Below, piece by piece: positions 1,707-62,800 of a stretch of DNA of 64,000 nucleotides. A program made the translations under genes and the position numbers. The stretch comes from Acorus gramineus. Taxonomy: Eukaryota > Streptophyta > Magnoliopsida > Acorales > Acoraceae. The stretch is from assembly GCA_030737835.1 (NCBI GenBank), contig JAUJYN010000017.1, positions 1,922,001 to 1,986,000 on the forward strand, in the 5' to 3' direction. Below the pieces are notes generated by a model. The model was not told the DNA's origin. It saw nothing but the letters and a program-made list of their open reading frames with translations, and did no database searches. The stretch's first letter is position 1. Each line of letters starts with the position of its first letter.

Positions 1707-2288
1707 TGTTATATATGTGTCACTTTTTACCTTCTGGTCACCATTGGAGCATTTTGGCAGTTTTTCAGCTTTTTCGTTTTTCGATCAGAACCGCTAAAAT
1801 TTTGGACTTTTAGCTATCATCCTGAGTTTGAGGATTCCGATTGAAAATCTAACTGCATATTATGTGTCTTGGTGCCATTTCAAGCCACTCACGAAAATTT
1901 CATCGAATTTCGGTAACGTTTCAGAATTTCACAGTTCTGAATCGTATCCGGGTTTTGACCGAGCGAAAAGTCATTGGGAGACTTGACTTGGTCAAGGTTG
2001 ACCTTTGACTTGGTCAAATGATTTTTGGCTTTTAGTGTGGTTGGGTTGACTAGGGTTAAATCTCACCTAAACCTAACTAAACCTAGCCTAAACCTAATTA
2101 GTGCTAAGTATAAGTGGTGAGTGTGTGAGGTGTGTGTGTGGCCCCCCTTTAAGTTCACGCCTAGGTATAGTGCCCCCCCACTATTCATCATCTTCTCCAC
2201 CTCTCAATCTCTCTCTCCCTCTCTTTAAAACCCCCTTTTGACCAAGCTAGAGGTGTTGGATCAAAAACCCTAGAAGGAGAAAAGATAG

Positions 2289-4034
2289 GTGAGGACCCGA
2301 TCTATCTTCCTATGGTCTCGGATTCGAGTTCCCTCATGTGTGACCCCCTCTTATGGTCCCTTTTCTCCTCAGATTTCAGCCACTTTTAGGGCTTGGTGGT
2401 GGTGGCCTTGGAGGTGGTGTTTCGGTGCGCGAAGAGCACCCGATCTTCCCTTCCTTCCCTTCCTCTCCCTTGGGTGAGCTTTCTTTCCTTCCTTTTCTTG
2501 TTTAGATGCATGTTAGGAGGTGTTTTTGGTTATGCATGGCTGTTGGGTGGTTGGAGGGGGGCTGTTGGGGGCTGTTGGAGGTGTTAGGGTTGGCTCGGGT
2601 GCATGCGGGCTCACCGGCGCGCGTGGGTACGAGCCTGCGCGCGCGCAGGCAGGCAGGCAGGCGAGCTGCGGTCAGGCGCGCTGGGCGCGCTGGGCGCAGT
2701 GCATGGCGTGCGCGCGGAGCGCTGCGCAGGGGCGCGGTGCGTGCGGTGTGCGCGGGGAGGCGAGCGGGCATGCGCGCGGGGTGCTACGCTGAGGCGCAGT
2801 GCGTGCGGGTGTGCGCGCGAGGTGCTGCACTGGGGCGCAGTGCGCGCGGGTGCACCCGGGGCTAGATGCGCGGTGCGCGCGGGCACGCGCGAGCGTGCGC
2901 TCGGTGTGCGGCGGGTCTGGGCGTGCGGGCTGGGGCGCGGCAGTGCGCCCGGGGCTCGGGCGTGCGTGCGTGCGTGCGCACCCGTGCGTGCGCGTGCGGG
3001 TGGCCGTGCGCATGGCTGCCCGGGGGTGCGGGAGTGAGTCGGGGCACTCGGGCTCGCGTGCGTACGGGCCGTATGTACGCTTGTCCGAGTGTTGGGTACA
3101 TTAGTGTATTTTTGTATGTATTTGTGTATTTTACTCACCTTGTTGAATACCCTGTCTTGCAGATCTTGACGGACGGTCACGCGACGACCCGGGTATTGGT
3201 GAGTGGGACAATCCAACCCAGTAGGGAGGCGTATATGCTTTTAGGCGTGTATCGTCCTCCCCTGGGGCACCATAGTTTAATATTAACTTGTATAATATGT
3301 AATCTATGCAGGCATGATTGTTATGTAGTATGCATGCCACCCTAGACCTTATATGTTAGGGACTTGCACCCTTAGGATATGTGTAAGAGCCATGCATCCT
3401 GATACCATATTTTCATGCTAGGAAGCCTTGACCTGTGCATGTTCCCATTTAGTTTAATTTATTTTAAATCAAATGTGAGTTATTGGTAATGAGCATGCTT
3501 AGTGAATATTATAACCATGAGGTTATAATACAGGCTTCCCCGCATCGTAGTTATGCGCCCTGGAAAAATTCGCAATAATTCATGTCATTTAAATTGTTAG
3601 GAAGATGTTGCCGACGGATCCGATTGGATCGTATACGTGTGGGTAGGCTGTTTCTGTTCCCTTCGTTGGATCCGTATAGAGACTGCCCCAGCGTTAGACA
3701 GGCCGTCCTGACAGAGGGCTCCCATCAGTAGGTACCTCCTGATTTGGTTTCGGACTGTGCTGAATTGTGGGAGTAGACCAGGCGGGCTACGGAGTGGAGG
3801 AGAGACTATCGGTGGACCAAGGGTGATTAACAGCCTAGTCAGTCCCAATAGCCGTGTCACCTATTGGAGGGTGAGGGTGAGGGTGTGGTGGGTCGGCGAT
3901 GTAGCGACCCACTGGATTGTGTAGTTCCTGCCACTTTGAGGCTTTGAATAATAATTGTGGTTAATATGAATTGTGATGCATGGGTTGTGCTATTCACTGA
4001 GCGTGTGCCTCACCCGTCGCATATTTTTCTCTAG
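2289..4034 (+). other. Predicted spliced leader inside the A2 LTR
   Basis: Three GT-AG intervals are seen. Intron 1 is 2289-2379 (donor GATAG|GTGAGG, acceptor ATTTCAG|CC). Exon 2 is 2380-2473 (94 bp). Intron 2 is 2474-3162 (donor CTTGG|GTGAGC, acceptor CTTGCAG|ATCTTG) and contains the CpG-dense tract. Exon 3 is 3163-3198 (36 bp). Intron 3 is 3199-4034 (donor TATTG|GTGAGTGG, acceptor TTTTTCTCTAG|TTATC). The same pairs with the same exon lengths occur in A5 (exon 2 59833-59926, exon 3 60697-60732), and related ones in A1 and family B. Splicing itself is inferred; no transcript is visible here. Confidence 0.55.
2588..3075 (+). repeat. CpG-dense alternating purine-pyrimidine tract in A LTR
   Basis: This block is very rich in GC, CpG and GT/GC alternation (runs such as GTGCGTGCGTGCGTGCGCAC near 2963). 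It contains degenerate tandem units of about 41 bp (2776-2816 and 2817-2858) centred on CTGGGGCGCAGTGCG. Equivalent tracts occur in the other A and B LTRs at about 18268-18545, 25668-26030, 27678-28020, 38852-39185, 42700-43440 and 60048-60620. Long open frames on both strands here follow from the lack of A/T and are not taken as genes. Confidence 0.85.
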
Positions 4035-4432
4035 TTATCACTGAGTCGGATCTGGAGGAGGAGCTCCCCGAGGGATTTCATCAGTAGTGGAGCAGCGCCA
4101 CGTCCCGCGAGTGTTAGAGGCCATCAGCATTCCTTTTGATTGTATGTATTATATTTCCGTGCTTGGGCACTCGTATGTATTATATTTGGATGTATTTGTG
4201 TATATTGGCTCTCACAGGACAGTTGATTATGTATCGAGTCTGTAATATGTTTTTGAATTACAGACTCAGTCTTTTAGCTTCCGCTATTTGTGTATATATC
4301 ATGTCAGCCTTGCTTTTGTCTGTGTTGCCATTTTAGCTGTTGTTTAGAGTATGTTATTGACCTCCTGTATAGACTGCTGATATCATATATACACTTGCCG
4401 CATCTCGGGGACGGCCGCCCTGGGGTGTGACA

Positions 4433-5470
4433 CGTTCGCTGCCAGCGACCACGCGCACGCACGCGCCTGCGCGCCCTTCTGCGCCTGCCAATGCCCCTCT
4501 GCGCGCGCGCCTGCGCGCGCACGCGCGCAGACAGACCCCTGCGCGCGCCCAGCACTCCCCAACCCTCTTTTAACCCCTTTTAACCCCTTCCCCACACTTC
4601 TCACTCACCCTAAACCAATTACCTAACATGCATGACTTCCCTACAACCCCCTAAGCCATGAAAAACCAAGAAAAGAAGGGGAAGAGCTCACCTTGGGAGG
4701 GGGATTGAAAGGGGTTCCCGGGGCCCTCGATGCACCCGCGACCACCTCAACCACCACCACCACTACCACCACCTCCACCTCCATAGCCCTCCTCAACCTC
4801 CTTTGGCTGCAAAACAGGGGGGGGAAAGGACATGAAAAGGGAGCTAGAGAGAGGATGATCAACAACAACAACAACACCCACACAACCTTGCTCTTCCTCC
4901 TTCACCTTCTCCTTCTCTTCTCTTTGAGACATTAACACAAACACATGGGGGGATTGAAAGAGAGGAAGAGAGACCCCCAAAAAAATCCACGTGGGGAGTG
5001 GGAGAGAGAGAGAGAGATATTTTCCACTTGGGGGGGGGGGGGGGGGGTGAGAACAAGATTGGGTGAGGGGGGTAAACCTAAGCCTATTCTCACCCTCTAA
5101 CAACCAAATAACCAAGTGGTTGCTTCACCACTAAGCAAAAAGGGGGTAAGGTTACCCAAGGTCACCCCATTCACCAAAATATCTCTCACTATTTGACTAA
5201 TCAAACCAGGAACTCTCGGAAACCCGGATACGATTCGGAATTGCATATTTTTCCAAACGTTACCGGAATTCGATGAAATTTTTATGGGTAGTACTAAACG
5301 GTACCAGGACCCATAATATGCAGTCAGATTTCCAATCAGAGTACTCTAACTCCCGCAGGTGGCTAAAAGCCAAAATTTTAGCGGCTCTGATCAAAAATTA
5401 AAAAGCCCCTTAATGACCCAGAAGTGACCAAGGCTTAACCGAAATTGCTCCAAGTGACACAGCCATAACA
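4433..5470 (-). mobile_element. 3' LTR of family B copy B1, inner part
   Basis: This reverse-oriented LTR sequence ends at 5470 with GACACAGCCATAACA, the complement of the TGTTATG start of family B. It contains the CpG-rich tail (4433-4550), the donor-like AAG|GTGAGC complement near 4687, a polypurine stretch and a G-run at 5031-5047. The rest of the LTR lies left of the window because A2 is inserted at 4432/4433. The next stretch on the right is the B1 PPT. Confidence 0.88.
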
Positions 5471-13934: not shown

Positions 13935-16900
13935 TGTTATGCCTGTGTCATTTGGAGCCATTTCGGTTAAGCCTTGGTCACTTCTGGGTCATTCAGGGCC
14001 TTTTTAATTTTTCGATCGGAGCCGCTAAAATTTTGGCTTTTAGCCACCTGCGGGAGTTAGAGTACTCTGATTGGAAATCTGACTGCATATTATGGGTCCT
14101 GGTACCGTTTAGTACTACCCATAAAAATTTCATTGAATTCCGATAACGTTTTAGAAAATTTTGCAGTTCTGAATCGTATCCGGGTTTTGACCGATTTTGG
14201 ATTGTCAAAGGGTGACTTTGACCAGGTCAACGAAGACCTTGACTAGTCAAAGATGACCTTTGACTAGTCAAAGATGACCTTTGACTAGTCAGGGGTTTTT
14301 GTTTGGTAGTTTGGTTGGGTTGACTCAAAGTCAATCCCCCTTTTTTCACATTTAATGTAAGTGTGTGTGTGAGTGTGTGTGTGTGTGTGTACACTATAGG
14401 TGGGCGTCCCCTTCTCATCCTCTCCCCCTCACTCTCTCCTTCATTCCCTGGTTTTCTTTGTTTTTTTTTTTTGTGTTAAATAAAAGAAGAACATGAAGGA
14501 GAAGAAGAAACATTAAAAGGAAAAGAGAAAGGTATGTGGGTGCAAGCTTTGGGTGTTGTAGTTGTTGTTGTTGTTTCTTCTCATTAGCTCCTTCTCATGC
14601 CTTCCCCCCCCCCCCTGTTTTCAGCCAAGGAAGGCTGGTGGAGTGGCTGATGAGGTGGTGGTAGTGGTGGTGGTGGTAGAGGTGGTCGTGGGTGTGTCGA
14701 GAACCCCGCATCTCCTCATTTCCCTTCCCCTTTTTTGCAGATCTCGTCTTTTAAAGATCTCAGTGCATCTAGTATTTAGAGGCATATTGTTAGGATTTTG
14801 TCTTCTTATGATTTGATCATCTATGTGTCTAGATGTTATATATGAAATTTGGGGTCATTATGATATCTGTGGTGTAAGTTAGGAATTGACCTGCTTCGGG
14901 AAATGATTTGTTTCGGGCTTGTAGAAGCAAAATTATGTTCTAATGCCTTCATGGATTATGATCCCATAATATCATAGAATGTGCATGATTTATTTCATAA
15001 TTTTTGGATTTGTATTGGGTGCTGTGAAGACCAATTAGTAGGGCTGGTTGCAGCAGGTTTAGTAGTTTTGCTTGGTTGAGTGTCAAGGAGTTGGTTGCAT
15101 GTGTCTTGGGTGATAATATGGAAGTATCAGGGGTTAAGGTTTTCATGAAGTAAGCTTATATGTGTGATAGGAGGTTCCATAATTTAATTATGGATCATTA
15201 GTTGTGTTTTGCAGATCTCGTAGACCGGATGCACGGCGATCCGGATATCGGTGAGTGGTTCGATCCAGCCCCCCCCCCCCTCTCAGGATGCGCTCGACGA
15301 GCGTAAACGCGCGTCGCGCATTGATGGGGCCCCCTAGCTATACTACTTGTCTAGATAAGTAGTATAGCCATGCTTAAGCTATGATATGTAGATATCTTGC
15401 ATGCCAGGCTTATATACATGTATTGTATTCATGTATGAATTATTGTGTTGCATGAGCCCCTCTAGTATGGGCATGTATTTTTTAAATGTGTATGGATGTA
15501 TAGAATATGGCATGCCTTAGGTAGTATTGTAATAATACTCCCACCGTATTAATTGGAATATCGAACAGGATTAAGTCTGGGTTAATAACGGGCACCTGCC
15601 TAATATTCCCTTGCGATAAGACTCGAGGGCGTGGTGTAGCTGTTGCGCCCATGCCAATGGGGCAACGATATGACCAGCTTTATGAGATGATGATCTCTCC
15701 CGCCCTCTCCCTCTGAACGAACTGAGTAAGTAGATGTGATTTCCTACTCGACTCAGGTTCGTTTGGAATATTGGCATGCACCTGTTAGTGCGCGAGATCG
15801 CGCTTGACCCTTTTGTTTTAAGTTGGCGATATCCAACGCGTGTTAGAGTATATTTTGTATGTTTATGTGATTAATGACAATGTATGCATGTTGTATGATT
15901 TATTATGATATAAATCCATGTTAGGGAGTGTCCCTATAATTATTAGATGATTGTGCACATGGTTCATGCACATAGCTAGATATAAAATTCTCCTGGATAT
16001 ATTTATATGCGCATGTTAAAAACTGATAGGCCTATCTGGAATAGGCGTGGGTATGACCCGCTGTCGGGTTGTACCTTATTAGTTAGAGCGCTAGAGATGT
16101 AATTTCCCCGTGCATCCGAGCAATGCACTCGTTTGGAATTCAGGAGTATTCATTATCTTATCGGATTGTTAAGCCTTTAGTTGGGGCGTGACACCCCCCT
16201 GTGTCCGAGCGACGCAACCGTGTGGGAGTACAGTAGTATTCGATATCTCGATAAGTGATTATCGAGAGTAGTTGTTTTTCCAATGGGTTTGCCTTCCGAA
16301 CATGGAATGTTTACTCCGAGTGTCGTCCGAGTTGAAGAGGGCCGGGTTGTAGCTGTCCTCACAGAGGGCTCCCATCAGTAGGTACCACCGATGCGTTCGG
16401 AAACGTATTGATCGCGGAAGTGTACCAGGTAAAGGCTACCCAGGAGAGGGCTAACGAATGATATTGCGAGCGTGGAATCGTTCTCCCCTTCGTTGGATCC
16501 GATGTAGGAACTCCCCGGCGTTGGAAAAGCTGTCCTGACAGAGGGCTCCCATTCGTAGGTACCACCGATGTGTTCGGAAGCGTATTGATCGTGGGTGTAT
16601 ACCAGGTAGAGGCTACGTGGGGAAAGGGCTACCGGTGGACCAAGGGTGTAGAGCAGTCTAAGTCTCTTCCAAAAGTCCCAAGTGTCTCCCTCCGGGAATG
16701 AGGGTGAGGATGAGGTGAAGACACGTCGCCTCGCGACCCATTTGTTGTTCGTCCGTTCCCATAGTTGTTGGGTCCGGTCTCGTATCGATGTTCAAAGACA
16801 TCGTTGGGTAGTTACCTCGATGGAGATGATCCAGTAGTGTTGTGTGGACCAGTAATCCCGGGTCTCCTCGACCAACGGTATGGTCTCTCCCTAAAAGTCC

Positions 16901-16948: not shown

Positions 16949-19407
16949 TGTCATGCCCCAGGGCAGCCGTCCCCGAGACATGGCAAGTATATATAATATC
17001 AGCAGTCTATATAGGAGATCAATAACATACTCTAAACAACATAAAAAATGACAACACAGACAACAAGGTAGCTGACATAATATATACAAATAGCGGAAGC
17101 TCAAACGACTGAGTCTGTATATCAAAGACATATTAAAGATCCGATACATACTCAATTATCCTGTGAGAGCCAATATATACAATGACATCCAAATACAAGT
17201 ATGTACCCAAGCACGGAATACAATACATACAATCAAGAAGGGGATGCTGATGGCCTCTCACTCGCAGAACGTGACGCTGCTCCGCTACTACTGATGTGCC
17301 TCGGGGAGCTCCTCCTTCAGATCCAACTCAGATATCACTGGAAGAAAAGAATATGCGAGGGGTGAGCCACACGCTCAGTGAATAGCACAACCCATGCATC
17401 ACAATTCATATTAACCTTATATAATTTATAGCCCCTAACACGGGAGCAACCACACATTCTAATGGGTCGTTTCATCGCCAACCCACCTCCCCCCTCACCC
17501 TCACCCTTTCCGGGGGGTGACATGGGCCTCTTGGGGCATACTAGACCGCTCTCCACCCCTGGTCCACCCGGTAGCCTCTCCCACCCTCGTAGCCTCCACC
17601 TGGTATACTCCCACTATCAGTACAGTCCGACGCATCGGAGGTACCTACGGACGGGAGCCCTTTGTCAGGCCAGCCAACGCCGAGGAGTTCCTACATCGGA
17701 TCCAACCAAAAGGAGAAGATAGCCTACTCACACGGATACGATCCTCTTGGATCCGTCGACACCGATTTGTAACTCTACTAATGTCATGAATTCTCAAGAA
17801 TTCCTCCAGGGCGCATAACTAAGATGCGGGGAGACATATATTATAACAACAAGGTTATAATATTCTCTAAGGCATGCTTGTAACTATATGCTCACATTTG
17901 ATTTAATTAAATTAAACTAGATGGGAACATACATAGTTCGGGGCATAGTGTCTAGGCATGCATAGGCCTCTATACATGACGTATGGGTGCATATCCCTAG
18001 CATACAAGTCTAAGGTGGCATGGATACAACATATTAATCATGCATGCATAGCTTTACATTTATTACATGTTAATACACAATTATGGTGCCCCAGGGGAGG
18101 GCAATGCACGCCTACGTGCATCGAACGCCTCCCTACTGGGTTGGATTGTCCCACTCACCGAAACCCGGGTCGCTACGTGACTGTCCGTCAAGATCTGCAA
18201 GACAGGGGCATTCAATATGGTGAGTAAACTATACAAATACATAAGAAATTTTCTAAAAATATCCAATACTCGGACAAGCATGCATACGGACCCGCACGCA
18301 TGCGAGCACGGCCCCCCGCACGCGCACGCATGAACGCGCATGCCCGCAAGCGCCCCTTCGCCCCGGGCGCACTGCCGCACCCTTGCCCGCGTGCCCAGAC
18401 GCGCTGCTCGCCCCTGCCCATGCGCCCAGACACGCTACTGCGCGCGCCCGCGCGCACCGCTCGTCTAGCCTTGCGCGTACCCTGCGCGCATTGCGCCCCC
18501 GCGCAGCACTCCGCGCGCACGCCCGCGCGCGCGCCATAGCCCTTCCCACCCCCTCCTCAGCCCATGCAAGCATGCATAACCAATTAAGTTCCCTAATCAA
18601 GCATCTATACTAGCTAGGGGAGGAGGAAAGCTTACCCAAAGAGGGGAAGGGAAAGGGAGGGAACTCGGGTGCCCTTCGCGCACCAAATCGCCGCCACCAA
18701 GACCACCAACACCTTAGCCACTTCTCAGCCCAAGATGGCTGAAAACAGGGGTTATGAGAAGCCATGAGAGGAGGTAAACAAGGGGGAAAACTAAACAAAG
18801 ACCATGGAGAGCTAGATCACTCCCTTACCAATCTTTTCTTCTTCAATGGCTTTCTATTTCAACTCCTCCTACTACCTCTAATGGGGGAAATAAAGAGAAG
18901 GGAAGATGGATTTGTGTGTGAGAGAGAGAGAGAGAGATGGGGAAGAAGAAAGAAGGGGGACGCCCACTTAAAGGGCCACACACACACACACACACACTCA
19001 CACACTCACACTCAGAAAAATTAGGTTTTTGTGTTTGACTTTAGGTCAACCCAACCACACAAACAAACAAAACCAATTGACCAAGTCAATGGTCAAACTT
19101 GACTTGGTCAAAGTCATCTTTGACTTGGTCAAGTCTCCCCATGACTTTCCCACTTGGTCAAAACCGATACGATTCGGAACTGCCAAATTCTGAACGTTAC
19201 CGGAATTCGATGAAATTTTCGTGAGTGGTTTGAAATGGCACAAGGACACATAATGTGCAGTTAGATTTTCAATCGGAGTTCTCAAGCTCATGATGATAGC
19301 TAAAAGTCTAAAATTTTAGCAGTTCCGATCGAAAAAAGAAAAAGTTGAAAAACTGCCAGAAATGTCCCAAAGGTGACCAGAAGGCTAAAAGTGACACATA
19401 TATAACA
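16949..19407 (-). mobile_element. 3' LTR of A1
   Basis: About 2.46 kb, running TGTCATGCCCC to GACACATATATAACA on the plus strand. It is shorter than the 5' LTR mainly because part of the CpG tract is missing (18268-18545 against 25668-26030). Splice-like signals are retained: the exon 3 complement lies near 18160-18200. Confidence 0.9.
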
Positions 19408-24222: not shown

Positions 24223-24319
24223 ATCAGCAACCTAAGAAAACAGACACTAGGATCAGAATACTCATATAGAAATCCTAGGACTCATCTCTAAGAAAACAAT
24301 TGGCTCTGACAGGACCAGG

Positions 24320-24335
24320 CTCTGATACCAACTTT
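24320..24335 (-). other. Primer binding site of A1
   Basis: The complement reads TGGTATCAGAG, matching the initiator tRNA-Met 3' end, five bases from the LTR end at 24336. Confidence 0.87.
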
Positions 24336-26485
24336 TGTCACGCCCCAGGGCGGCCGTCCCCGAGACGTGGCAAGTATATATAATATCAGCAGTCTATACA
24401 GGAGATCAATAACATACTCTAAACAACATCAAAAATGACAACACAGACAATAAGGTAGCTGACATAATATATACAAATAGCGGAAGCTCAAACGACTGAG
24501 TCTGTAATTCAAAGATATTACAGACCCGATACATAATCAACTGTCCTGTGAGAGCCAATATATACATGACATCCAAATACAAGTATGTGCCCAAGCATCG
24601 AATACAATACATACAATCAAGAAGGGGATGCTGATGGCCTCTCACTCGCAGAACGTGACGCTGCTCCACTACTGCTGATGTGCCTCGGGGAGCTCCTCCT
24701 TCAGATCCGACTCAGATATCACTAGAAGAAAAGAATATACGAGGGGTGAGCCACACGCTCAGTGAATAGCACAACCCATGCATCACAATTCATATTAACC
24801 TTATATAATTTATAGCCCCTAACACGGGAGCAACCACACATTCTAATGGGTCGTTTCATCGCCAACCCACCTCCCCCCTCACCCTCACCCTTTCCGGGGG
24901 GTGACATGGGCCTCTTGGGGCATACTAGACCGCTCTCCACCACTGGTCCACCCGGTAGCCTCTCCCACCCTCGTAGCCTCCACCTAGTATACTCCCACTA
25001 TCAGTACAGTCTGATGCATCGGAGGTACCTACGGACGGGAGCCCTCTGTCAGGTCAGCCAACGCCGGGAGTTCCTACATCGGATCCAACCAAAAGGAGAA
25101 GACAGCCTACTCACACGGATACGATCCTCTTGGATCCGTCGACACCGATTTGTAACTCTACAAATGTCATGAATTCACAAGAATTCCTCCAGGGCGCATA
25201 ACTAAGATGCGGGGAGACATATATTATAACAACAGGGTTATAATATCCTCTAAGGCAAGCTTGTAACTATATGCTCTCATTTGATTTAATTAAATTAAAC
25301 TAGATGGGAACATACATAGTTCGGGGCATAGTGTCTAGGCATGCATAGGCCTCTATACATGATGTATGGGTGCATATCCCTAGCATACAAGTCTAAGGTG
25401 GCATGGATACATCATATTTATCATGCATGCATAGCTTTATATTTATTATATGCTAATACACAATTATGGTGCCCCAGGGAGGGCAATGCACGCCTATGTG
25501 CATCGAACGCCTCCCTACTAGGTTGGATTGTCCCACTCACCGAAACCCGGGTTGCTACGTGACTGTCCCTCAAGATCTGCAAGACAAGGACATTCAATAT
25601 GGTGAGTAAACTACACAAATACATAAGAAATTTACTAGACATACCCAATACTCGGACAAGCATGCATACGGACCAGCACGCATGCGAGCACGCGCGTACG
25701 CACGCGAGTCCGAGTGCCCCGACACCCTCCTGAACCCACGGACAGCCATACGCACGGCCACCCGCACGCGCACGCACGAATGCGCATGCCCGCACGCGCC
25801 CCTGCGTCCCGGGCGCACTGTCGTGCCCTTGCCCACGTGCCCAGACGCGCTGCCGCGCCCCTGTCCGTGCTCCCAGACGCACCGTGCGTCCAGCCCTGCG
25901 CGTACCCGCATGCACTGCGCCCCTGCGCAGCACTCCACGCGCACGCCCGCGCGTCTGCGCGCGCCAGCGCCTACCAGCGCGAGCAGACTCGCGCGCACGC
26001 GCGCAGATGGCTTTTCGCGCGCGCCATAGCCCTTCCCACCCCCTCCTCAGCCCACCCTCACCCCCTTAACACCCATGCAAGCATGCATAACCAATTAAGT
26101 GCCCTAATCAATCATCTATACTAGCTAGGGGAGGAGGAAAGCTTACCCAAAGAGAGGAAGGGAAAGGAGGGAACTCGGGTGCCCTTCGCGCACCAAATCG
26201 CCGCCACCAAGACCACCAACACCTCAGCCACTTCTCAGCCCTAGAATGGCTGAAAACAGGGGTTATGAGAAGCCATGAGAGGAGGTAAACAAAGGGGAAA
26301 ACCAAACAAAGACCATGGAGAGGTAGATCATTCCCTTACCAATCTTTTCTTCTTCTAGGGCTTCCTATTTCAACTCCTCCTACTACCTCTAATGGGGGAA
26401 ATAAAGAGAAGGGAAGATGGATTTTGTGTGTGAGTGAGAGAGAGAGAGATGGGGAAGAAGAGAGAAGGGGGACGCCTAAGTGGCT

Positions 26486-26516
<31 letters not shown>

Positions 26517-26903
26517 ACTTAGAAAATTAGGTTTTTGTGTTTGACTTTGGGTCAACCTAACCACACAAACAAACAAAATCATTTGACCAAGTCAATGGTC
26601 AAACTTGACTTGGTCAAAGTCATCTTTGACTTGGTCAAGTCTCCCCATGACTTTCCGCTTGGTCAAAACCCGGATACGATTCGGAACTGCCAAATTCTGA
26701 ACGTTACCGGAATTCGATGAAATTTTTGAAATGGCACCAGGACACATAATGTACAGTTAGATTTTCAATCGGAGTTCTCAAGCTCATGATGATAGCCAAA
26801 AGTCTAAAATTTTAGCGGTTCTGATCGAAAAAAAGAAAAGTTGAAAAGCTGCCAGAAATGTTCCAAAGGTGACCAGAAGGCTAAAAGTGACACATATATA
26901 ACA
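24336..26903 (-). mobile_element. 5' LTR of A1 with predicted spliced leader
   Basis: About 2.57 kb, running TGTCACGCCCC to GACACATATATAACA on the plus strand. On the coding (minus) strand, intron 1 starts at 26339 (AAAGATTG|GTAAGG) and ends at 26250 (TTTTCAG|CC). Exon 2 is 26249-26147. Intron 2 starts with GTAAGC at 26146 and ends CTTGCAG at 25577. Exon 3 is 25576-25541 (36 bp). Intron 3 starts GTGAGTGG at 25540 and ends TTCTTCTAG at 24722. The CpG-dense tract (25668-26030) falls inside intron 2. A (CA)n stretch lies at 26484-26520. Confidence 0.88.
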
Positions 26904-27438: not shown

Positions 27439-28913
27439 AAGCATGGCCATACTACTTATCTACACAAGTAGTATAACTAGGGGGCCCCATCGATGCGCGA
27501 CGCGCGACTAAGCGCGTCGAGCGCATCCCGTGGGGAGGGGATTGGATCGAACCACTTACCATTACCCAGGACCTCGCGCATCCCATCCGACGAGATCTGC
27601 AAGGTAAGGGCATCAAATTTGGTGAGTAACATCACAATTTAACACTTAGAAATCACTAGAATTACTAAAGACTTAGACATGCACGCATACGGCCTCGCAC
27701 GCATGCGAGCACGCACGTACGCACGCATGCCCGAGTGCCCCAGCACCTACCTGAGACCCTGGGCAGCCCCACGCATGCCCCAGCACGCGCACGCACGCGC
27801 ACGCACGCGCGCGCGCACACTGGCACCCAGCCGCGTGCCCAGACACACGCCCAGGCGCACTGCCCCGCGTGCGCGCGCACGCTTGCGCGTGCCCGCACAC
27901 ACTCGCGCGCACCCCGCTCGCTGCAAGCGTCCGCGCGCACCCGCCTGCGCCTGCCAGTGCCCCTCTACGCGCGCGCCTGCGCGCGCACGCGCGCAGACAG
28001 ACCCCTGCGCGCGCCCAGCACTCCCCAACCCTCTTTTAACCCCTCCCCCACACTTCTCACTCACCCTAAACCAATTACCTAACATGCATGACTTCCCTAC
28101 AACCCCCTAAGCCATGAAAAACCAAGAAAAGAAGGGGAAGAGCTCACCTTGGGAGGGGGAATGAAAGGGGGAGATTCGGGGGCCCTCGATGCACCGCGAC
28201 CACCTCAACCACCACCACCACTACCACCACCTCCACAGCCCTCCTCAGCCTCCTTTGGCTGCAAAACAGGGGGGGAAGGACATGAAAAGGGAGCTAGAGA
28301 GAGGATGATCAACAACAACAACAACACCCACACAACCTTGCTCTTCCTCCTTCACCTTCTCCTTCTCTTCTCTTTGAGACATTAACACAAACACATGGGG
28401 GGATTGAAAGAGAGGAAGAGAGACCCCCAAAAAAAATCCACGTGGGGAGTGGGAGAGAGAGAGAGATATATTTTCCACTTGGGGGGGGGGTGAGAACAAG
28501 ATTGGGTGAGGGGGGTAAACCTAAGCCTATTCTCACCCTCTAACAACCAAATAACCAAGTGGTTGCTTCACCACTAAGCAAAAAGGGGGTAAGGTTACCC
28601 AAGGTCACCCCATTCACCAAAATATCTCTCACTATTTGACTAATCAAACCAGGAACTCTCAGAAACCCGGATACGATTTGGAACTGCATATTTTTCCAAA
28701 CGTTACCGGAATTCGATGAAATTTTTATGGGTAGTACTAAACGGTACCAGGACCCATAATATGCAGTCAGATTTCCAATCAGAGTACTCTCATCCCGCAG
28801 GTGACTAAAAGCTAAAATTTTAGCAGCTCCGATCGAAAAATTAAAAAGCCCTTGAATGACCCAGAAGTGACCAAGGCTTAACCGAAATGGCTCCACATGA
28901 CACAGGCATAACA
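27439..28913 (-). mobile_element. 5' LTR of B1, second segment
   Basis: This is the remaining part of the B1 right LTR after the B2 insertion, ending GACACAGGCATAACA at 28913. It contains the hairpin (about 27449-27474), exon 3 of the predicted leader (27596-27560, 37 bp, between CTTGCAG and GTAAGTGG on the minus strand), the CpG-dense tract (27678-28020), the donor AAG|GTGAGC (27147+1000: 28147-28146) and the acceptor TTTTGCAG|CC at 28260-28259. The right flank atatc is the B1 target-site copy in a Harbinger Myb gene. Confidence 0.88.
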
Positions 28914-36525: not shown

Positions 36526-39500
36526 TGTCACGCCCCAGGGCGACCGTCCCCGAGACGTCGCAATAATGAAATATCAGATATCAATACCTGAGGTCAATAA
36601 CGATTCCAACAACACACAAGGTGGCAAAGCAAATATAATGATAACTGACTGAAAAGTGGAAGCATAATATATAAACAATGTCTGTAAATCAAAAACATTA
36701 TTACAGACTCGAATACACAATCACTGTCCTGTGAGAGCCAAGTCTAGACCAAATAAAATACAATCTGTGCCTCATGCACGATTTACAATACATAAAATGA
36801 CTCTAGGACTGCTGACAGCCTCGCACTCGCCACCCGCCGGAAGAACACTCCACGCCCATAAGACCACACCACAGGGAAGCTCCAACTCCACGCCCAACAC
36901 TGCCCCTGAAAAGAAACAGTATGCGAGGGGTGAGCTACAAGCTCAGTGAGTGGCTGGAAACCAATCACCATACAACAGTTCAATACATAAACACTTTCCT
37001 TTCAAGGAAAACATGGGTGGAAACCCATGGATAACAGGGTCACGCAGCGGCGCGACCAACCTCACCCTCACCCTCACTCCCGGAGGGAGACTCTTGGGAC
37101 TTTTGGGGAGAGACCATACCGTTGGTCGAAGAGACCCGGGATTACTGGTCTACACAACACTACTGGATCATCTACATCGGGATAACTGCCCAACGATGTC
37201 TTTGAACATCGATACGCAACCGGACCCAACAACTATGGGAACGGACGAACAACGAATGGGTCACGCGGCGACGTGTCTTCACCTCATCCTCACCCTCACT
37301 CCCGGAGGGAGACTCTTGGGACTTTTGGAAGAGACCTAGACTGCTCTACACCCTTGGTCCACCGGTAGCCCTTTCCTCGGGTAGTCACTACTTGGTATAC
37401 TCCCACGATCAGTACGCTTCCGAATGCCTCGGTGGTACCTACGGATGGGAGCCCTCTGTCAGGACAGCTTTTCCAACGCCAGGAAGTTCCTACATCGGAT
37501 CCAACGAAGGGGAGAATGATTCCACGCTCGCAATATCATTCGTTAGCCCTCTCCCGGGTAGCCTCTACCTGGTACACTCCCACGATCAGTACGCCCCCGA
37601 ACGCATCGGTGGTACCTACGGATGGGAGCCCCTTGTCAGGACAGCTACAACCCGGGCCTCTTCAACATAGACGACATTGGGAGTAAACATTCTATGTTCG
37701 CAAAGCGAACCCAATGGAGAAACAACTACTCTCGAGAATCTCACTTATCAAGATATCGAATACTACTGTACTCCTACACCGTTGCGTCGCTCGGACACAG
37801 GGGGGTGTCGCGCCCCAACTACCAGCTTAACAATCCGATAAGATAATGAATTCTCCTGATTCCACACGAGTGCATCGCTCGGATGCACAGGGCGATTACA
37901 TCGCTAGCGCTCTAACTAATAAGGTACAACCCGACAGCGGGTCATACCCACGCCTATTTCAGATAGGCCTGATTAGTTTTAACATGCGCATATATTTTAT
38001 AGGAGAATTTAATCTTAGTTATGTGCATGAACCATATGCACGATAACATATCAATTAATCATAGGGATACTCCCTAATCATAGATTTACATCATAATAAA
38101 TCATACAACATGCATACATGGTCATTAATCACATAAGCACACAAGGCCTAACTTAAGCATGCGTTGGATATCACCAACTTAAAAGAAAGGGTCAAGCGCG
38201 ATCTCGCGCACTAACAGGTGCATGCCAATATTCCAAACAAACCTGAGTCGAGTAGGAAATCGCATCTACTTACTCAGTTCGTTCAGAGGGAGAGGGCGAG
38301 AGAGATCATCATCTCATAAAGCTGGTCATAGCTTTGCCCCATTAGCATGGGCACAACAACTACACCACGCCCTCGAGTCTTATCGCAAGGGAATATTAGG
38401 CAGGTGCCCGTTATTAACCCAGACTTATTCATGCTGGATATTCCAATTAATATGGTGGGAGTAGTATTACAATACTACCTAAGGCATGCCATATTCTATA
38501 CATTCATACACATTTCAAACAATACATGCCCATACTAGAGGGGCGCATGCAACACAATCATTCATACATGTATATAAGCCTAGCATGCAAGATATCTACA
38601 TATTATAGCTTAAGCATGGCCATACTACTTATCTACACAAGTAGTATAGCTAGGGGGCCCCATCGATGCGCGACGCGCGACTACGCGCGTTGAGCGCATC
38701 CTGAGGGGGGGGGGATTGGATCGAACCACTCACCGCAACCCGGGACCTCGCGCATCCCATCCGACGAGATCTGCAAGGTAAGGGCATCAAATTTGGTGAG
38801 TAACATCACAATTTAACACTTAGAAATCACTAGAATTACCAAAGACTTAGACATGCACGCATACGGGCTCGCACGCATGTGAGCACGCGCGTACGCACGC
38901 ATGCCCGGGTGCCCCAGCACCTACCCGAGACCCTGGGCAGTCCGTGCATGCCCCAACATGCGCACGCACGCGTATGCATGCACGCGCGCGCACTGGCACC
39001 CAGACCCGCCTAGGCACACTACTCGCGCGCACGTCATGCGCGCACCCCGCTCGCTGCTAGCGTTCGCGCGCACCCGCGCGCCCGCTCCGCGCACACGCGC
39101 GCGCCCGTGCGCCCACCTATGCCTGCCAGCGCCCCTGTGCGCGCGCACACGCGCACAGACAGGCCCCTGCGCGCGCCCAGCCATCCTTAACCCCTTTTAA
39201 CCCCTCCCCCACACTTCTCACTCACCCTAAACCAAATACCTAGCATGCATGACTTCCCCACAACCCCCTAAGCCATGAAAAACCAAGAAAAGAAGGGGAA
39301 GAGCTCACCTTGGGAGGGGGAATGAAAGAGGAAGATCCGGGGGCCCTCGATGCACCCGCGACCACCTTAACCACCACCACCACTACCACCACCTCCTCAG
39401 CCCTCCTCAGCCTTCTTTGGCTGCAAATTAGGGGGGGGGGGAAGACATGAAAAGGGAGCTAGAGAGAGGGGGATCAACAACAACAACACAAACACAAACC

Positions 39501-40063
39501 TTGCTCTTCCTCCTTCACCTTCTCCTTCCTTTGCTTCTTCCTCCTCCTTCTCCACACACAAAGAGAGGAAAAAGAGACCAAGAGAGGGAGAGAAAGAGAG
39601 GTCCACGAGTTGGGAGAGAGGGGGAGAGAGAGAGAGAGGGCAAAATGGTCATTTTCATGCCCAAATAGTATTTTGGGGTGACCATATAGGGGGGGTGAGG
39701 TTAGGGTTAAGCTCACCCTCACTCAACCACTTATTTTTGCTTTATTGGGAAGCGTGCGGAGAAGCACCACACACTCGAAAATATCTCACCCACCAAAACC
39801 CAGTAACGGCCAAACCCGGATGCGATTCAGAACTGCATATTTTTCAAAACGTTATCGGAATTCGATGAAATTTTTATGGGTAGTACTAAACGGTACCAGG
39901 ACCCATAATATGCAGTTAGATTTCCAATCAGAGTACTCTAACTCCCGCAGGTGGCTAAAAGCCAAAATTTTAGCGGCTCCGATCAAAAAATTAAAAAGCC
40001 CCTGAATGACCCAGAAGTGACCAAAGCTTAACCGAAATGGATCCAAATGACACAGGCATAACA
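36526..40063 (-). mobile_element. Solo LTR of family B (B5)
   Basis: A complete reverse-oriented B LTR of about 3.54 kb, running TGTCACGCCCC to GACACAGGCATAACA. It is bordered by gtccg (36521-36525) and gtcgg (40064-40068), a 5-bp target copy with one change. Host sequence on both sides is integrase of element C. It carries the predicted 37-bp exon 3 (38770-38734, between CTTGCAG and GTGAGTGG), the hairpin, the CpG tract (38852-39185) and purine-rich microsatellites (39440-39640). A solo LTR arises by recombination between the two LTRs of a full element. Confidence 0.92.
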
Positions 40064-41093
40064 GTCGGGATCCTGAGCTCCATGGGATTACAGCCTCGAC
40101 GCCAAAAGCCAAGGAAAACAGAGTCTCTCTTGTGGCCCTTCGCTCCGTGGTGCGGTATGCCCATAGCACCAAGGGAAGCTCATCCACCCAGTTGCCTTTG
40201 GCCGCATTGAGCTGCTTCTTGATCCCATCCAGGATGGTATGATTGGTGATCTCTGCCTAACCATTTCCTTGGGCGTAGCGTGGAGAGGAGAAAAGGTGCT
40301 TTATGCCCAACTCCTCGCAGAACTCTCTCATGGTGGCATTATCGAATTGTGTTCCGTTATCGGAGATTATGGTGTTCGGCACTCCGAACCGACACACGAT
40401 CTCTTTCCAAAGGAAACTTCGCACTTTGATATCACGGATTCTTGCCAGGGCCGCAACCTCCACCCATTTGGTGAAATAGTCAGTGGCGACCATGAGGAAT
40501 CGCTTCTGGGATGGCGCAAAGGGCATGGGCCCGACTATATCGAACCCCCATTGAGCGAACGGCCAAGGACTTGACAGTGTATTCAAATCCCCAGCTGCTC
40601 GGTGAATCAGGGGACCGAATCGCTGGCACTTGTCGCATTTCCTCACCAGGTCAAGTGAGTCTTTTGCAAGGGTTGGCCAGAAATATCCAGCTGTCAATAC
40701 ACGTCTTGCCAAATACCTTGAGGCCGTATGGCTCCCGCATACTCCCGAATGCATTTCTTCCAACACTTCTTTAGCTTCCTCGGGATTGACACACCTGAGG
40801 AGAGGGCCTTGAAAGCTTTGCTTATACAGTGCGCCCTGATCATAGATCAAGAACCGAGCAGATCGGCTCTTGATCCTCCTGGCTTCTTCTTTATCTGCTG
40901 GGAGGAAGTCGTCTTTCAGGTAAGATAGGATGGGGTCCATCCAAGTCGGCTCCCGGGTTGTCGACTCTACTGCCATAACCTGTTTGAGGTGGACTATGCT
41001 CAGCTCCCCCAAGAACTCGACCTGAATCTCCCGGGATGGCTCTCCTTCCAGCGCACTCACCAGATTTGCCAGAGTATCAGCTTGAGTATTCAA
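40064..41093 (-). pseudogene. pol: Element C integrase core
   Basis: On the minus strand a zinc-binding region ending CDKCQRF is followed by the core with WGFDIVGPMP (first Asp), ISDNGTQFDN (second Asp) and SPRYAQGNG followed by the Glu-containing AEITN. Then [14 protein letters not shown] runs into B5. A TAG at 40257-40259 stands where Gln is usual in this family (GNGQAE). The region integrates cDNA. Upstream it joins the RNase H block. Confidence 0.88.
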
Positions 41094-41829: not shown

Positions 41830-43872
41830 TGTTATATATGTGTCACTTTTAAGCTTCTAGTCACCATTGGGACATTCTGGCAGTTTTTTGATTTTTTTCG
41901 TTTTTCGATAGGAACCGCTAAAATCTTGGACTGTTAGCTATCGTCCTGAGTTTGAGGACTCCGATCGAGAATCTAACTGCATATTATGTGTGTCCTGGTG
42001 ACATTCCAAGCCGCTCACGAAAGTTTCATCAAATTCCGGTAACATCTCAGAATTTCACAGTTCTAAAACGTATCCGGGTTTTGACCGAGCGAGAAGTCAT
42101 TGGGAGAGTTGACTTGGTCAAAGTGGGCCCATGACTTGGTCAACCCCTTTTGTTTTTTTGTGTGGTTGGGTTGACCCAAATCAAATCTCACTTAAGCCTC
42201 ACTAATCCTCTCTTAACCCTAATTAAACCTAATCTAAGTGGGGATTAACCTATAAGTGAGCTAAATATCTTCTCTCCTCCACTATTCATCATCTTCCCCA
42301 ATTAGATATCTCTCTCCCCCTCTCTCTTTTTCTTGGTTTTGACCTAGCTAGATGGGTTAAAATGAAAAGCACAAAGAAGAGAAAGGTTAGATCTCATCCC
42401 GATCTATCCACCGGTGGTCACGGATTCGAGTTCCTACGAGTTTGACCCCCTCTAACACCCTCTTTTCTTCTCTGATTTCAGCCCCCCTTGGGCTAGGTAG
42501 AGATCTTGGTGGTGGAGGTCTTTGGGGAGGTGTTTCGGTGCGCGAAGAGCAACCGATCTTCCCTTCCTTCCTTTCCTTCCTTGGGTAAGGTTTCCTTTCC
42601 TTCCTTTCTTGTTTAGATGCTTGGTAGGAGGGTGTTTTTGAGTGGGGGTGGCTATGGGTGGCTGTGGGTGGCCGTTGGTGTCCGTTGGAGTGGTGGTGGG
42701 CTGTCCCGGGTTGGCTGGCAAGCAGGCAGGGCAGCGCAGAGCTGGGCGCTGTCGGGCATGCTGGCAGGGCAGCGTGGGCGTGTGCGCGGGTGGAGCTCGG
42801 TTCGGGCACATGTGGGCAGCGATGCGCGCAGGCAGGCGCAGGCGGTCAGGCGCAGGCAGGCGAGCTGCGGGCAGGCGCGCTGGGCGCGTGCTGACGGGCT
42901 CGCTGGGTGAGTGAGGTCGGGCGCGCTGGGCGCAGTACGCGACGTGCGCGTGGAGCGCTGCGCAGGGGCGCGTGGACGAGCGGGTGGTGTGCGGGTGCTG
43001 CGCAGGGGGCGTAGTGCGCGCAGGGCGAGCAGTTGGTGCGAGCGGGGAGTGTGAGCGGGCAGGTGTTCAGGCGCTGCGCTGGGGCGCAGTGCGGGCGGGT
43101 GCGCGTGCGGGGCGCTGTGTTGGGGCACAGTGCGCGCGGGTGCACCCGGGGCTGGGCGAGCGGGTGATCCGAGCAGGTGGTGCGCGCGGGATGCTGTGAT
43201 GGGGCGCTGGGCGTGCGGGTGTGCGTGCGGGTTGCTGCACTGGGGCGCAGTGAGCGCGCGGTGCACCAGTGGGGGGCTCGGCGGGGTGTCCGGGAGTGCG
43301 GGCTGGGCTCGGCCGTGCGACTGGGCGCGCGGGCTGGGGCGCGGCTGTGCGCCTGGGTCGGGTGGCCGTGCGTACGGCTGCCCGGGGGTTCGGGAGTGAG
43401 TCGAGGTGCTCGGACTCGCGTGCGTATAGGCCGTGTGTACTCTTGTCCGAGTGTTGGGGTATTTTAATGTATTTTAGTTGTATTTATGTATTTTACTCAC
43501 CAAATCGATTACCCTGTCTTGCGGATCTTGACGGACGGTTGCGCGACGACCCGGTTAAGGGTGAGTGGGACAACCCAACCCAGTTGGGAGGCGCTATACG
43601 CACTTGGGCGTATACCGTCCTCCCCTAGGGCACCGCAGTTGATATTAACTGTGTAATATGTAATCCATGCAAGCATGATTAATATGTAGAATGCATGCCA
43701 CCCTAGACTTTGTATGTTAGGGACTTACACTCTTATGATATGTGTAAGAGCCATGCATCCTGTCACCCTGTTCGCATGCTAGGAAGTCTCGACCTATGCA
43801 TGCGTCCTACTAGTTTAATTTATTAAATTAAATGCTAGCATATGATTATTAGCATGCCTTGATAATATTATA

Positions 43873-43992
43873 GGGAGGGGCCTTGCGAGGTCAACATTGA
43901 GACCCGGGCTAGGGTACTCTGTGTTCCTTGTTTGGTTGTCAGGATGTCCTGTATCGGGACCTCAAGCTGCCCTCCCAAGGTTTCTTTTCCCA
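43873..43992 (+). mobile_element. Short insert matching family B internal sequence
   Basis: About 119 bp (GGGAGGGGCCTTGCG to TTTCTTTTCCC) lie between two copies of ataatattata (43862-43872 and 43993-44003). The other A LTRs have one copy of this target and no insert (near 3513 and 61040). The insert closely matches 11635-11749 of B2 and the complement around 7650-7765 of B1. There are only weak inverted ends. It may be a very small mobile unit that also sits in family B, or a B fragment inserted in repair. Confidence 0.65.
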
Positions 43993-44321
43993 ATAATATT
44001 ATAACCCTCATTAATTAATATTATATATGTTTCTTGGTTATGCGCCCTGGAGGAATTATGAAGAATTCATGACATTAGAGTTGTTGAGATGTGTTGTCTG
44101 CGGATCCGAGTGGATCATATGCGTATGGATAGGCTGTTCTGTTCCCTTCGTTGGATCCGTGTAGAGACTACCCTGGCGTTGGAAAGGTTGTCCCATGCAG
44201 GGGCTCCCATCAGTAGGCACCTCCTGATTTGGGACGGACTGTGCTGAATGTGGGGGTGGCCAAACGGCCTACGGAGTGGGGAGAGACTATCGGTGGACCA
44301 AGGGTGACCAACAGCCTAGTC

Positions 44322-44494
44322 AGTCCCAATATCCTATGTCACCTGTTGAGGGTTGAGGGTGAGGGTGTAGTGGGTTGGCGATAGCGACCCACTGGATTTG
44401 TGTAGTTAGTCCCAATATCCTATGTCACCATATTGAGGGGTGAGGGTGAGGGTGTAGTGGGTCGGCGATATAGCGACCCACTGGCTTGTATAGT
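44322..44494 (+). repeat. 86-bp tandem duplication in A4
   Basis: Two copies start with AGTCCCAATATCC at 44322 and 44408. Each includes GAGGGTGAGGGTG and GCGACCCACTGG. A2 and A5 have one copy. Confidence 0.85.
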
Positions 44495-45015
44495 TGTTGC
44501 CACTTTGAGGCTTGAATAATGAGATAGTGGTTAATAAAATCTGGTGGTTAATATAAATTGTGATGCATGGGTTGTGCTGTTCACTGAGCGTGTGGCTCAC
44601 CCCTCGCATAATTATTATTCTCCAGTGCTATCTGAGTCGGATCTAGAGGAGGAGCTCCCCGAGGGACAGCACCAGTAGCGGAGTAGCGCCACGTCTCGCG
44701 AGTTTCAGAGGCCATCAGCATCCCCTTTTGATTGTATGTATTATATTCCGTGCTTGGGCACACGTTTGTATTCTATTCGGATGTATGTGTATATATTGGC
44801 TCTCACAAGACAGTTGATTATGTATCGAGTCTGTACTATGTCTTTGAGTTACAGATTCAGTCTTTTAGCTTCCGCTATTTGTGTATATATCATGTCAGCC
44901 CTGCTTTCGTCTATGTTGTCATTTTTAGCTGTTGTGTGAGTATGTTATTGAACTCCTGTTTGGACTGATATCATATATACACTTGCCGCGTCCCGGGGAC
45001 GCCCGGGGCGTGACA

Positions 45016-61942: not shown

Positions 61943-62800
61943 CGCTCGCTGCCAGCGTCCGCGCGCCTGCGCGCCCTCCTGCGCCTGCCCGTGCCCCTCT
62001 GCGCGCGCGCCTGCGCGCGCATGCGTGTAGACAAGCCCCTGCGCGCGCCCAGCACTCCCCAACCCTCTTTTAACCCCTTTTAACCCCTCCTCCACACTTC
62101 TCACTCACCCTAAACAATTTACCTAACATGCATTACTTCCCTACAACCCCCTAAGCCATGAAAACCAAGAAAAGAAGGGGTAGAGCTGACCTTGGGAGGG
62201 GGAATGAAAGGGGGAGATTCGGGGGCCCTCGATGCACCCGCGACCACCTCAACCACCACAACCACTACCACCACCTCCTCATCCCTCCTCAACCTCCTTT
62301 GGCTGCAAAACAGGGGGGGGGAAAGGACATGAAAAGGGAGCTAGAGAGAGGATGATCAACAACAACAACAACACCCACACAACCTTGCTCTTCCTCCTTC
62401 ACCTTCTCCTTCTCTTCTCTTTGAGACATTAACACAAACACATGGGGGGATTGAAAGAAAGGAAGAGAGACCCCCAAAAAAATCCACGTGGGGAGTGGGA
62501 GAGAGAGAGAGAGATATTTTCCACTTGGGGGGGGGGGTGAGAACAAGATTGGGTGAGGGGGGTAAACCTAAGCCTATTCTCACCCTCTAACAACCAAATA
62601 ACCAAGTCGTTGCTTCACCACTAAGCAAAAAGGGGGTAAGGTTACCCAAGGTCACCCCATTCACCAAAATATCTCTCACTATTTGACTAATCAAACCAGG
62701 AACTCTCGAAAACCCGGATACGATTCGGAACTGCATATTTTTCCAAACATTACCGGAATTCGATGAAATTTTTATGGGTAGTACTAAACGGTACCAGGAC
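61943..62800 (-). mobile_element. Family B LTR B4, second segment, truncated
   Basis: The B LTR continues after A5 and closely follows 4433-5330, including the G-run and the AG-rich stretch. It stops at 62800 (GGTACCAGGAC), about 235 bp short of the usual LTR end, and is fused to family A internal sequence. Confidence 0.86.

Follow-up and report, generated by a model that had tools for sequence, protein, structure and literature searches.

Leader introns in the long terminal repeats of Ty3-type retrotransposons of Acorus gramineus, and intron-less genomic copies that point to replication of spliced RNA

The retrotransposons of the locus

The window, i.e. the whole stretch of 64,000 nucleotides analysed here (C55:1922001-1986000), belongs to the 398.6-Mb genome of Acorus gramineus and is rich in nested LTR retrotransposons. 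Five A-type LTRs lie within it, alongside sequences of a second family, B. The copies used below are the following.

1707-4434, plus strand: LTR A2, 3' LTR of a Ty3 element with the pol end upstream; 91% match to 59168-61950
59168-61950, plus strand: LTR A5; exon 2 at 59833-59926 (94 nt), exon 3 at 60697-60732
24336-26903, minus strand: 5' LTR of element A1; exon 1 ends at 26340, exon 2 at 26249-26147 (103 nt), exon 3 at 25576-25541, exon after acceptor 3 from 24721
16949-19407, minus strand: 3' LTR of element A1; microexon at 18194-18159
41830-45015, plus strand: third A-type LTR; microexon present, acceptor 2 reads TTGCGG
36526-40066, minus strand: B-family LTR; exon 1 ends at 39500, exon 2 at 39420-39309 (112 nt), exon 3 at 38770-38734 (37 nt), exon after the third acceptor from 36905
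58839-58875, minus strand: B-family microexon, 37 nt; this copy is the sister of the intron-less locus L062 (98% identical)
27560-27596, minus strand: B-family microexon, 37 nt
15215-15250, plus strand: B-type microexon, 36 nt

The LTRs at 26903-24336(-) and 19407-16949(-) bound a single element, A1, whose pol ORF (22830-20725, minus strand) contains RVP_2, RVT_1 and RT_RNaseH above cut-off, corresponding to protease, reverse transcriptase (RT) and RNase H. A further ORF (20421-19456, minus strand) harbors SH3_Tf2-1, also above cut-off, together with a weak match to the chromodomain PF00385 (E 5.1e-4, 20.4 bits, cut-off 25.1 bits). The integrase core (rve) was seen only in another copy (588-1421), with a score under its cut-off. 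With protease, RT, RNase H and then integrase in this order between the LTRs, and with a primer binding site (PBS) adjoining the LTR, the elements are Ty3/gypsy LTR retrotransposons, and they are probably of the chromovirus type. They may belong to the Tekay/Del clade, as their LTR length would suggest. The start of LTR A2, TGTTATATATG, and its end, TGACA, are common to other copies.

Two structural details of the window can be recorded here. The LTR at 41830-45015 carries an insertion at about 43873-43995(+), after the microexon, part of which (GAGACCCGGGCTAGGG) recurs in inverted orientation near 7726 and also next to LTRs L038 and L041; it is perhaps a small non-autonomous element. At 10305/10306 and 27438/27439, parts of oppositely oriented LTRs directly adjoin each other, forming head-to-head or tail-to-tail joints.

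A shared splice layout in two LTR families

A preliminary description of this DNA had proposed that the LTRs of both families share an ordered set of GT-AG signals. The signals of A2 are indeed found at bases 2288, 2380-2473, 3163-3198 and 4034, giving the following layout, in which a slash between motifs marks a splice site.

2245-2288, plus strand: exon 1, taken as 44 nt for the query, ending AAAGATAG/GTGAGG; joined to exon 2 in L053-L057, L079 and L080
2289-2379, plus strand: intron 1, GTGAGG to TTTCAG, 91 nt; its equivalent is absent from 7 A loci and 20 B loci examined
2380-2473, plus strand: exon 2, 94 nt; joined to the microexon in 14 A loci
2474-3162, plus strand: intron 2, GTGAGC to TTGCAG, 689 nt; its equivalent is absent from 14 A loci and 18 B loci examined
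3163-3198, plus strand: microexon (exon 3), 36 nt, TTGCAG/ATCT to ATTG/GTGAGTGG
3199-4034, plus strand: third-donor region, from donor GTGAGTGG to the proposed third acceptor TTTTTCTCTAG, which ends at 4034; no copy with exon 3 joined to exon 4 was found
4035-4141, plus strand: possible exon 4, with a predicted end GATT/GTATGT; ATG in 0 of 40 copies

GT-AG introns and the microexon recur in the LTRs of both families, and the microexon is typically 36 nt in A and 37 nt in B. A search of the window with the microexon pattern gave eight matches, five of 36 nt (3163, 15215, 60697, 25576(-) and 18194(-)) and three of 37 nt (58875(-), 38770(-) and 27596(-)), which bears out the small exon of 36 or 37 nt reported for both families. 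The LTR at 41830-45015 is a ninth with a microexon, missed by the pattern owing to its altered acceptor TTGCGG. Exon 2 does measure 94 nt in both A2 and A5, as described beforehand, although it has 103 nt in A1; across 38 aligned A copies its length ranges from 93 to 105 nt with a mode of 103, and 94 nt is found in part of family A only. The core of intron 2 (2574-3062, plus strand) reaches 77% G+C in aligned A copies, and both of its 100-nt ends contain 40-42% T. A GC-rich stretch of this length seems unusual in a plant intron.

Conservation of the sites was measured in 40 aligned A-type LTRs, consisting of 36 fetched loci minus L018, which repeats A5, plus the five copies of the window. The eight GT/AG columns of introns 1 and 2 have a mean majority frequency of 0.987, compared with 0.912 for the 96 columns that flank them (P 0.019 by resampling). 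Both GT-AG pairs are kept in 31 of the 33 copies in which every site is aligned. The expectation that splice sites would be better conserved than their flanks thus holds for introns 1 and 2 taken overall, the excess stemming from donor 1, acceptor 1 and donor 2; in the same 40 LTRs it fails for acceptor 2 and donor 3, which are no better conserved than their own flanks, and acceptor 3 exceeds its flanks only slightly. Since all aligned copies are close relatives, site conservation is modest evidence when taken alone.

A block CACTGAGC(G/T)TGT(G/A)(G/C)CTCACCC occurs just 5' of the third acceptor in both A and B LTRs (3995-4034, 44582 and 61527 on the plus strand; 24764, 17380, 36948, 32331 and 8629 on the minus strand) and is well conserved among A copies (3987-4026). 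It may be a branch site or another U5 signal.

Intron-less LTR copies in the genome

Reverse transcription of a spliced leader RNA should leave intron-less LTRs with exact junctions, and such copies were sought throughout the genome. For family A, a query of the four exons joined (282 nt) yielded 40 scored candidates among 6070 first-look ones. In five of the 40, the match runs unbroken through exons 1-2-3 and ends with the final microexon base; when read, these five have both junctions exact and retain the GTGAGTGG region 3' of the microexon. A 17-nt pattern across the A exon 2/exon 3 joint matched 12 times in the genome and 0 times in the reversed control, and 11 of the 12 matches are LTRs. 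Ten of them were new and were fetched: nine proved to be LTRs, and L083, a chance match outside any LTR, was dropped. For family B, the 40 loci scored with a joined-exon query of 257 nt comprised 27 with exons 1-2-3 joined, five with exons 2-3 joined, two with exons 1-2 only, and six in which exon 2 matched as a separate piece, i.e. intron-bearing loci. Twenty of the 34 joined B loci were fetched.

In all, 34 loci lacking intron 1, intron 2 or both were checked, 14 from A and 20 from B. Both introns are absent from seven of the 14 A loci (L053-L057, L079 and L080) and intron 2 only from six (L078, L081 and L084-L087), while L082 lacks intron 2 and has intron 1 shortened to a 12-nt rest; A loci outnumber events, as some are the two LTRs of one element. 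Among the fetched B loci, 18 lack introns 1 and 2, and two (L074 and L075) lack intron 1 only. The exon 2/exon 3 joint falls at the predicted base in all 32 loci without intron 2 (14 A and 18 B), and the exon 1/exon 2 joint does so in 25 of the 27 loci without intron 1. The exceptions, L066 and L067 of family B, read TTTGT at this joint, which a donor a few bases downstream could explain. The leader splicing predicted at 2288/2380 and 2473/3163, or at equivalent bases, is thereby matched by genomic copies joined at both junctions.

A first rough figure for frequency comes from exact patterns in family B: genome-wide, 13 matches to the joined exon 2/exon 3 stand against 523 intron-bearing matches in which exon 2 is followed by GTGAGC, with 0 control matches, i.e. 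a joined share of about 2.4% of the copies caught by the two patterns, which cover only some B subfamilies. A 27-nt exon 2/exon 3 pattern allowing two mismatches gave 78 matches and 0 in the control, but its count was set aside, as by eye only about 26 are joined and the rest are mostly intron-bearing acceptor variants (TTGTAG etc.).

Plain DNA deletion or gene conversion, rather than spliced RNA, could also produce LTRs without introns. L082 shows that a partial deletion within intron 1 can occur, and imprecise deletions would have been ranked lower by the exactly joined queries with which the loci were found, so that exact joints are favoured in the sample. However, joints that are exact in 32 of 32 and 25 of 27 cases, in two families and in three combinations of missing introns, are hard to reconcile with deletion, as are two elements flanked by target-site duplications in which both LTRs are alike. 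In one of these, on C55, intron 2 is missing from the two LTRs, which share 96.8% identity across 901 aligned bases, and TGTAA flanks the element on either side. In the other, on C58, the two LTRs are devoid of introns 1 and 2 and share 96.6% identity across 640 bases, with GTATA flanking the element on either side. Both target-site duplications are perfect and 5 bp long. In the established retroviral mechanism, the 5' end of the RNA is the template for R-U5 in each of the new LTRs. Two like LTRs within a 5-bp duplication are therefore as expected from LTR reverse transcription of spliced RNA followed by integrase insertion, and we regard deletion or conversion as extremely improbable. For a pair on C82 (97.0% identical) and the B pair L076/L077, no target-site duplication was confirmed, one or both LTR ends not having been found.

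Trees were built from 480 nt running from the microexon into the retained region, with 40 intron-bearing and 14 intron-less rows for A, and 11 and 18, respectively, for B, from which L074 and L075 were left out. The A tree contains four changes of state, at least three of them forced by supported branches, and the B tree six, of which at least four are forced, although resolution is poor (open inner branches number 31 of 50 in A and 13 of 26 in B, and L085 and L068 are long, odd rows). A history with a single change was found in 0 of 200 bootstrap trees in either family. Three changes in a tree may represent one gain and two losses, the direction not being readable from trees alone; however, that both families should have gained two introns at identical sites is implausible, and the changes are thus read as repeated losses.

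Taken as a whole, the data are best explained by leader introns of Ty3-type LTR retrotransposons whose spliced RNA enters replication, a reading to which we assign a probability of roughly 0.85. That introns 1 and 2 are real and have been retro-copied appears very likely. Since both families contain what appear to be DNA copies of their spliced RNA, introns 1 and 2 qualify as spliceosomal introns with exact GT-AG removal. By the same evidence, ordinary splicing evidently takes them out in vivo, either one at a time or both at once, and part of the leader-spliced RNA is evidently reverse-transcribed and integrated normally, yielding elements in which both LTRs are intron-less. The preliminary description had suggested that splicing of the leader could set a messenger apart from the unspliced genome; for introns 1 and 2 the strict form of this idea fails, since RNA spliced there has repeatedly been reverse-transcribed and integrated.

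ATG content of the leader

The predicted exons of the A copies are almost free of ATG, with 2 in 1482 nt of exon 1, 1 in 3852 nt of exon 2, 6 in 1439 nt of exon 3 and 0 in 4301 nt from the start of exon 4 to its donor, i.e. 9 in 11,074 nt. Outside the exons there are 81 in 3317 nt of intron 1, 363 in 27397 nt of intron 2, 978 in 33632 nt of intron 3 and 243 in 11608 nt of U5 after donor 4. Mononucleotide shuffles predict 0.96 to 2.12 ATG per 100 nt in the exons, against 0.00 to 0.42 observed, and all four exons are low; these counts are not independent, as the A copies are related. The reversed triplet CAT served as a control. It occurs 69 times in exon 4, so that composition is not the cause of the absence of ATG there, but only 1, 6 and 2 times in exons 1 to 3, about as rarely as ATG, and this control thus favours exon 4 only. 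In family B there are two ATGs in the microexon and one in the exon that follows the third acceptor, which restricts the ATG-free leader to A. The predicted spliced leader of A would fit scanning ribosomes that must reach gag.

Alternatively, the spliced exons could code for a small LTR protein, in a frame running through exons 3 and 4 (..ESDL(K/E)EELPEG..stop). This frame is open in exon 3 of all 40 A copies and in exon 4 of 38 of the 40, and third positions of exon 4 vary more than the others (1.085 vs 0.475 and 0.402; column permutation P 0.026). However, the excess comes largely from one column (4081) and P becomes 0.23 when the number of variable columns is used, and 21 of the 108 LTR windows taken as controls show an equally strong phase. 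In exon 2, moreover, 19 of 38 copies have this frame open, which is no higher than for the other frames; exons 1-4 are ATG-free in most copies, and by eye the frame is not kept in B. Coding exons would thus seem very unlikely and are not favoured.

The third donor, the primer binding site and gag

The preliminary description had three introns contained in the LTR. This stands for introns 1 and 2, whereas no joined copy was found for the third, 3198/4035: none appeared in the A or B joined-exon searches of the genome, and a 25-nt A exon 3/exon 4 pattern allowing two mismatches gave 0 genome matches. As far as fetched, 14 A and 18 B loci retain the sequence 3' of the microexon; for B this is based on an aligned microexon end in seven loci, the others being placed by the tree alignment (L066 weakly), and in L074 and L075 the region falls outside the fetched stretch. 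As introns 1 and 2 have been lost repeatedly and the third was not seen lost in these searches, three readings arise: the third is not spliced, RNA without it is not packaged, or its donor leads past the PBS.

Under the first reading, introns 1 and 2 are the only ones in the leader, every RNA retains the long region downstream of them, and Gag is made via shunting, reinitiation or an internal promoter. The lack of joined exon 3/exon 4, exon 3/gag and exon 4/gag DNA in the searches made agrees with this, as do third sites hardly more conserved than their flanks, although conservation is uninformative as proof of these sites, since young copies show uniform conservation throughout U5. On the other hand, a donor GT(G/A)AGTGG is kept after the microexon in both families, and the 107 nt after acceptor 3 are ATG-free in 40 of 40 copies despite CAT being common there, in a leader that is otherwise ATG-rich. 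A leader with only two introns is on balance rather unlikely.

The second reading holds that the third intron is spliced to 4034 but carries a packaging or dimer signal, so that RNA without it is never copied. Intron 3 is better conserved than intron 2 in A copies (0.969 vs 0.913), and it is kept in retro-spliced copies where these are readable, both as this reading would have it. Yet U5 downstream is equally conserved (0.971), and with such young copies conservation is weak evidence. We consider a signal of this kind unlikely.

The third reading involves the region between the LTR and gag, where the relevant features of A1 are the following.

24319-24330, minus strand: TGGTATCAGAGC, beginning at 24330(-), which we take to be the primer binding site of A1
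24231, minus strand: first base after the predicted gag-proximal acceptor, TTTTCTTAG/GTTGCTGATATGCC

The gag ATG of A1 begins at 24222(-), 9 nt after this acceptor. An acceptor TTCTTAG/GTTG right before gag, present in A1, is also found in 13 of the 15 loci displayed for their PBS-like stretch; of the two exceptions, L026 has a diverged leader and L052 has none. Within the LTR, the donor GATT/GTATGT follows the possible exon 4. Searches for joined DNA gave, for exon 3/gag, a single match with two mismatches (C5:12354282), which was judged to be chance and rejected as a joint, its letters resembling pol adjoining another LTR start; for exon 4/gag there was none, the three matches with two mismatches all being, by their letters, unspliced acceptor variants. 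A splice that removes the PBS predicts this lack of joined exon 3/gag or exon 4/gag DNA, which also fits the absence of such splicing. That the last splice spans the PBS is the reading we prefer among the three, although we give it slightly less than even odds.

A second leader type was seen 3' of the LTR in L026 and L014 (TAGTCGTATAGATG.., acceptor TTGTCTTAG or TTATCTTAG, ATGCCTCCTCRC). It comes without an A1-type gag start and perhaps belongs to a non-autonomous element.

A model of leader splicing can be outlined in which introns and third donor play different roles. Transcription would start in the LTR just 5' of exon 1. The third donor GTGAGTGG, at the end of the microexon, would usually not be joined to the acceptor at 4034 alone, but would lead, directly or via exon 4, to the acceptor TTTTCTTAG/GTTGCTGATATG just before gag. 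This gag-proximal splice would remove the remaining upstream ATGs together with the PBS, and the PBS-less product could be translated into Gag but not copied, leaving no DNA trace. The leader would thus act as a splicing cassette: removal of introns 1 and 2 would be harmless to replication and heritable in new LTRs, and the splice from the microexon donor to gag, by removing the PBS, would fix a messenger-only fate. We advance this cassette tentatively, and somewhat doubtfully. Separation of messenger from genome by the third-donor splice is possible if that splice ends past the PBS.

Comparison with known systems and significance

In HTLV-1 and foamy viruses the major splice donor lies in R, so that the first donor is in an LTR-derived leader; these are animal viruses with a single donor and no microexon, unlike the A and B LTRs. 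An intron is also contained in the Penelope terminal repeat. Penelope-like elements resemble the present case in that their introns can apparently be retained through retrotransposition, but they are not LTR retrotransposons, and an antisense template has been hypothesised for them (PMC3846280, accessible sections). In plants, the sections available of the respective reports place splicing always inside the element body, for Ogre, BARE1 and EVADE alike (PMC6317226, PMC3735527, PMC12786077). Ogre, of the Tat lineage, is likewise a plant Ty3 element with a partly spliced intron (PMC6317226, PMC12786077, in the portions available). EVADE, a Ty1/copia element of Arabidopsis, obtains its Gag messenger (subgenomic GAG) by alternative splicing, but the splice removes the protease region within the element body (PMC12786077, same portions). 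The barley Ty1/copia element BARE1 produces a spliced Gag RNA by means of a 104-nt intron at the gag end, and its authors state that DNA copies of the spliced RNA could not be amplified from barley DNA (PMC3735527, available text). Splicing of BARE1 RNA assigns translation and replication to different molecules (PMC3735527, available text), and the third-donor splice proposed here would do the same; the two cases differ in that the BARE1 intron lies outside the LTR and that DNA copies of spliced RNA are present here.

Retrosat2 of rice, from the Tekay/Del clade, is a chromovirus, as the present elements probably are, and likewise has very long LTRs (>3.2 kb), but the main text of its report mentions neither intron nor exon (PMC3485330), and the available part of a report on centromeric retrotransposons contains no mention of intron, splicing or leader (PMC3059260). 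No report of introns inside plant LTRs was found among the titles and abstract starts of the best-ranked matches in the open-licence literature, subscription papers being mostly outside it, and a prior description is possible.

How a single retrotransposon RNA can be both messenger and genome has yet to be settled for the LTR elements of plants. As splicing within an LTR leaves a record in DNA, both the splicing and the entry of its products into replication can be counted from an assembly without RNA. The intron-less copies indicate that spliced plant LTR RNA can be replicated, in contrast to BARE1 as reported, and LTR annotation should expect length classes arising from intron loss. If the cassette reading is true, counts of intron-less LTRs would measure how often spliced leaders enter replication.
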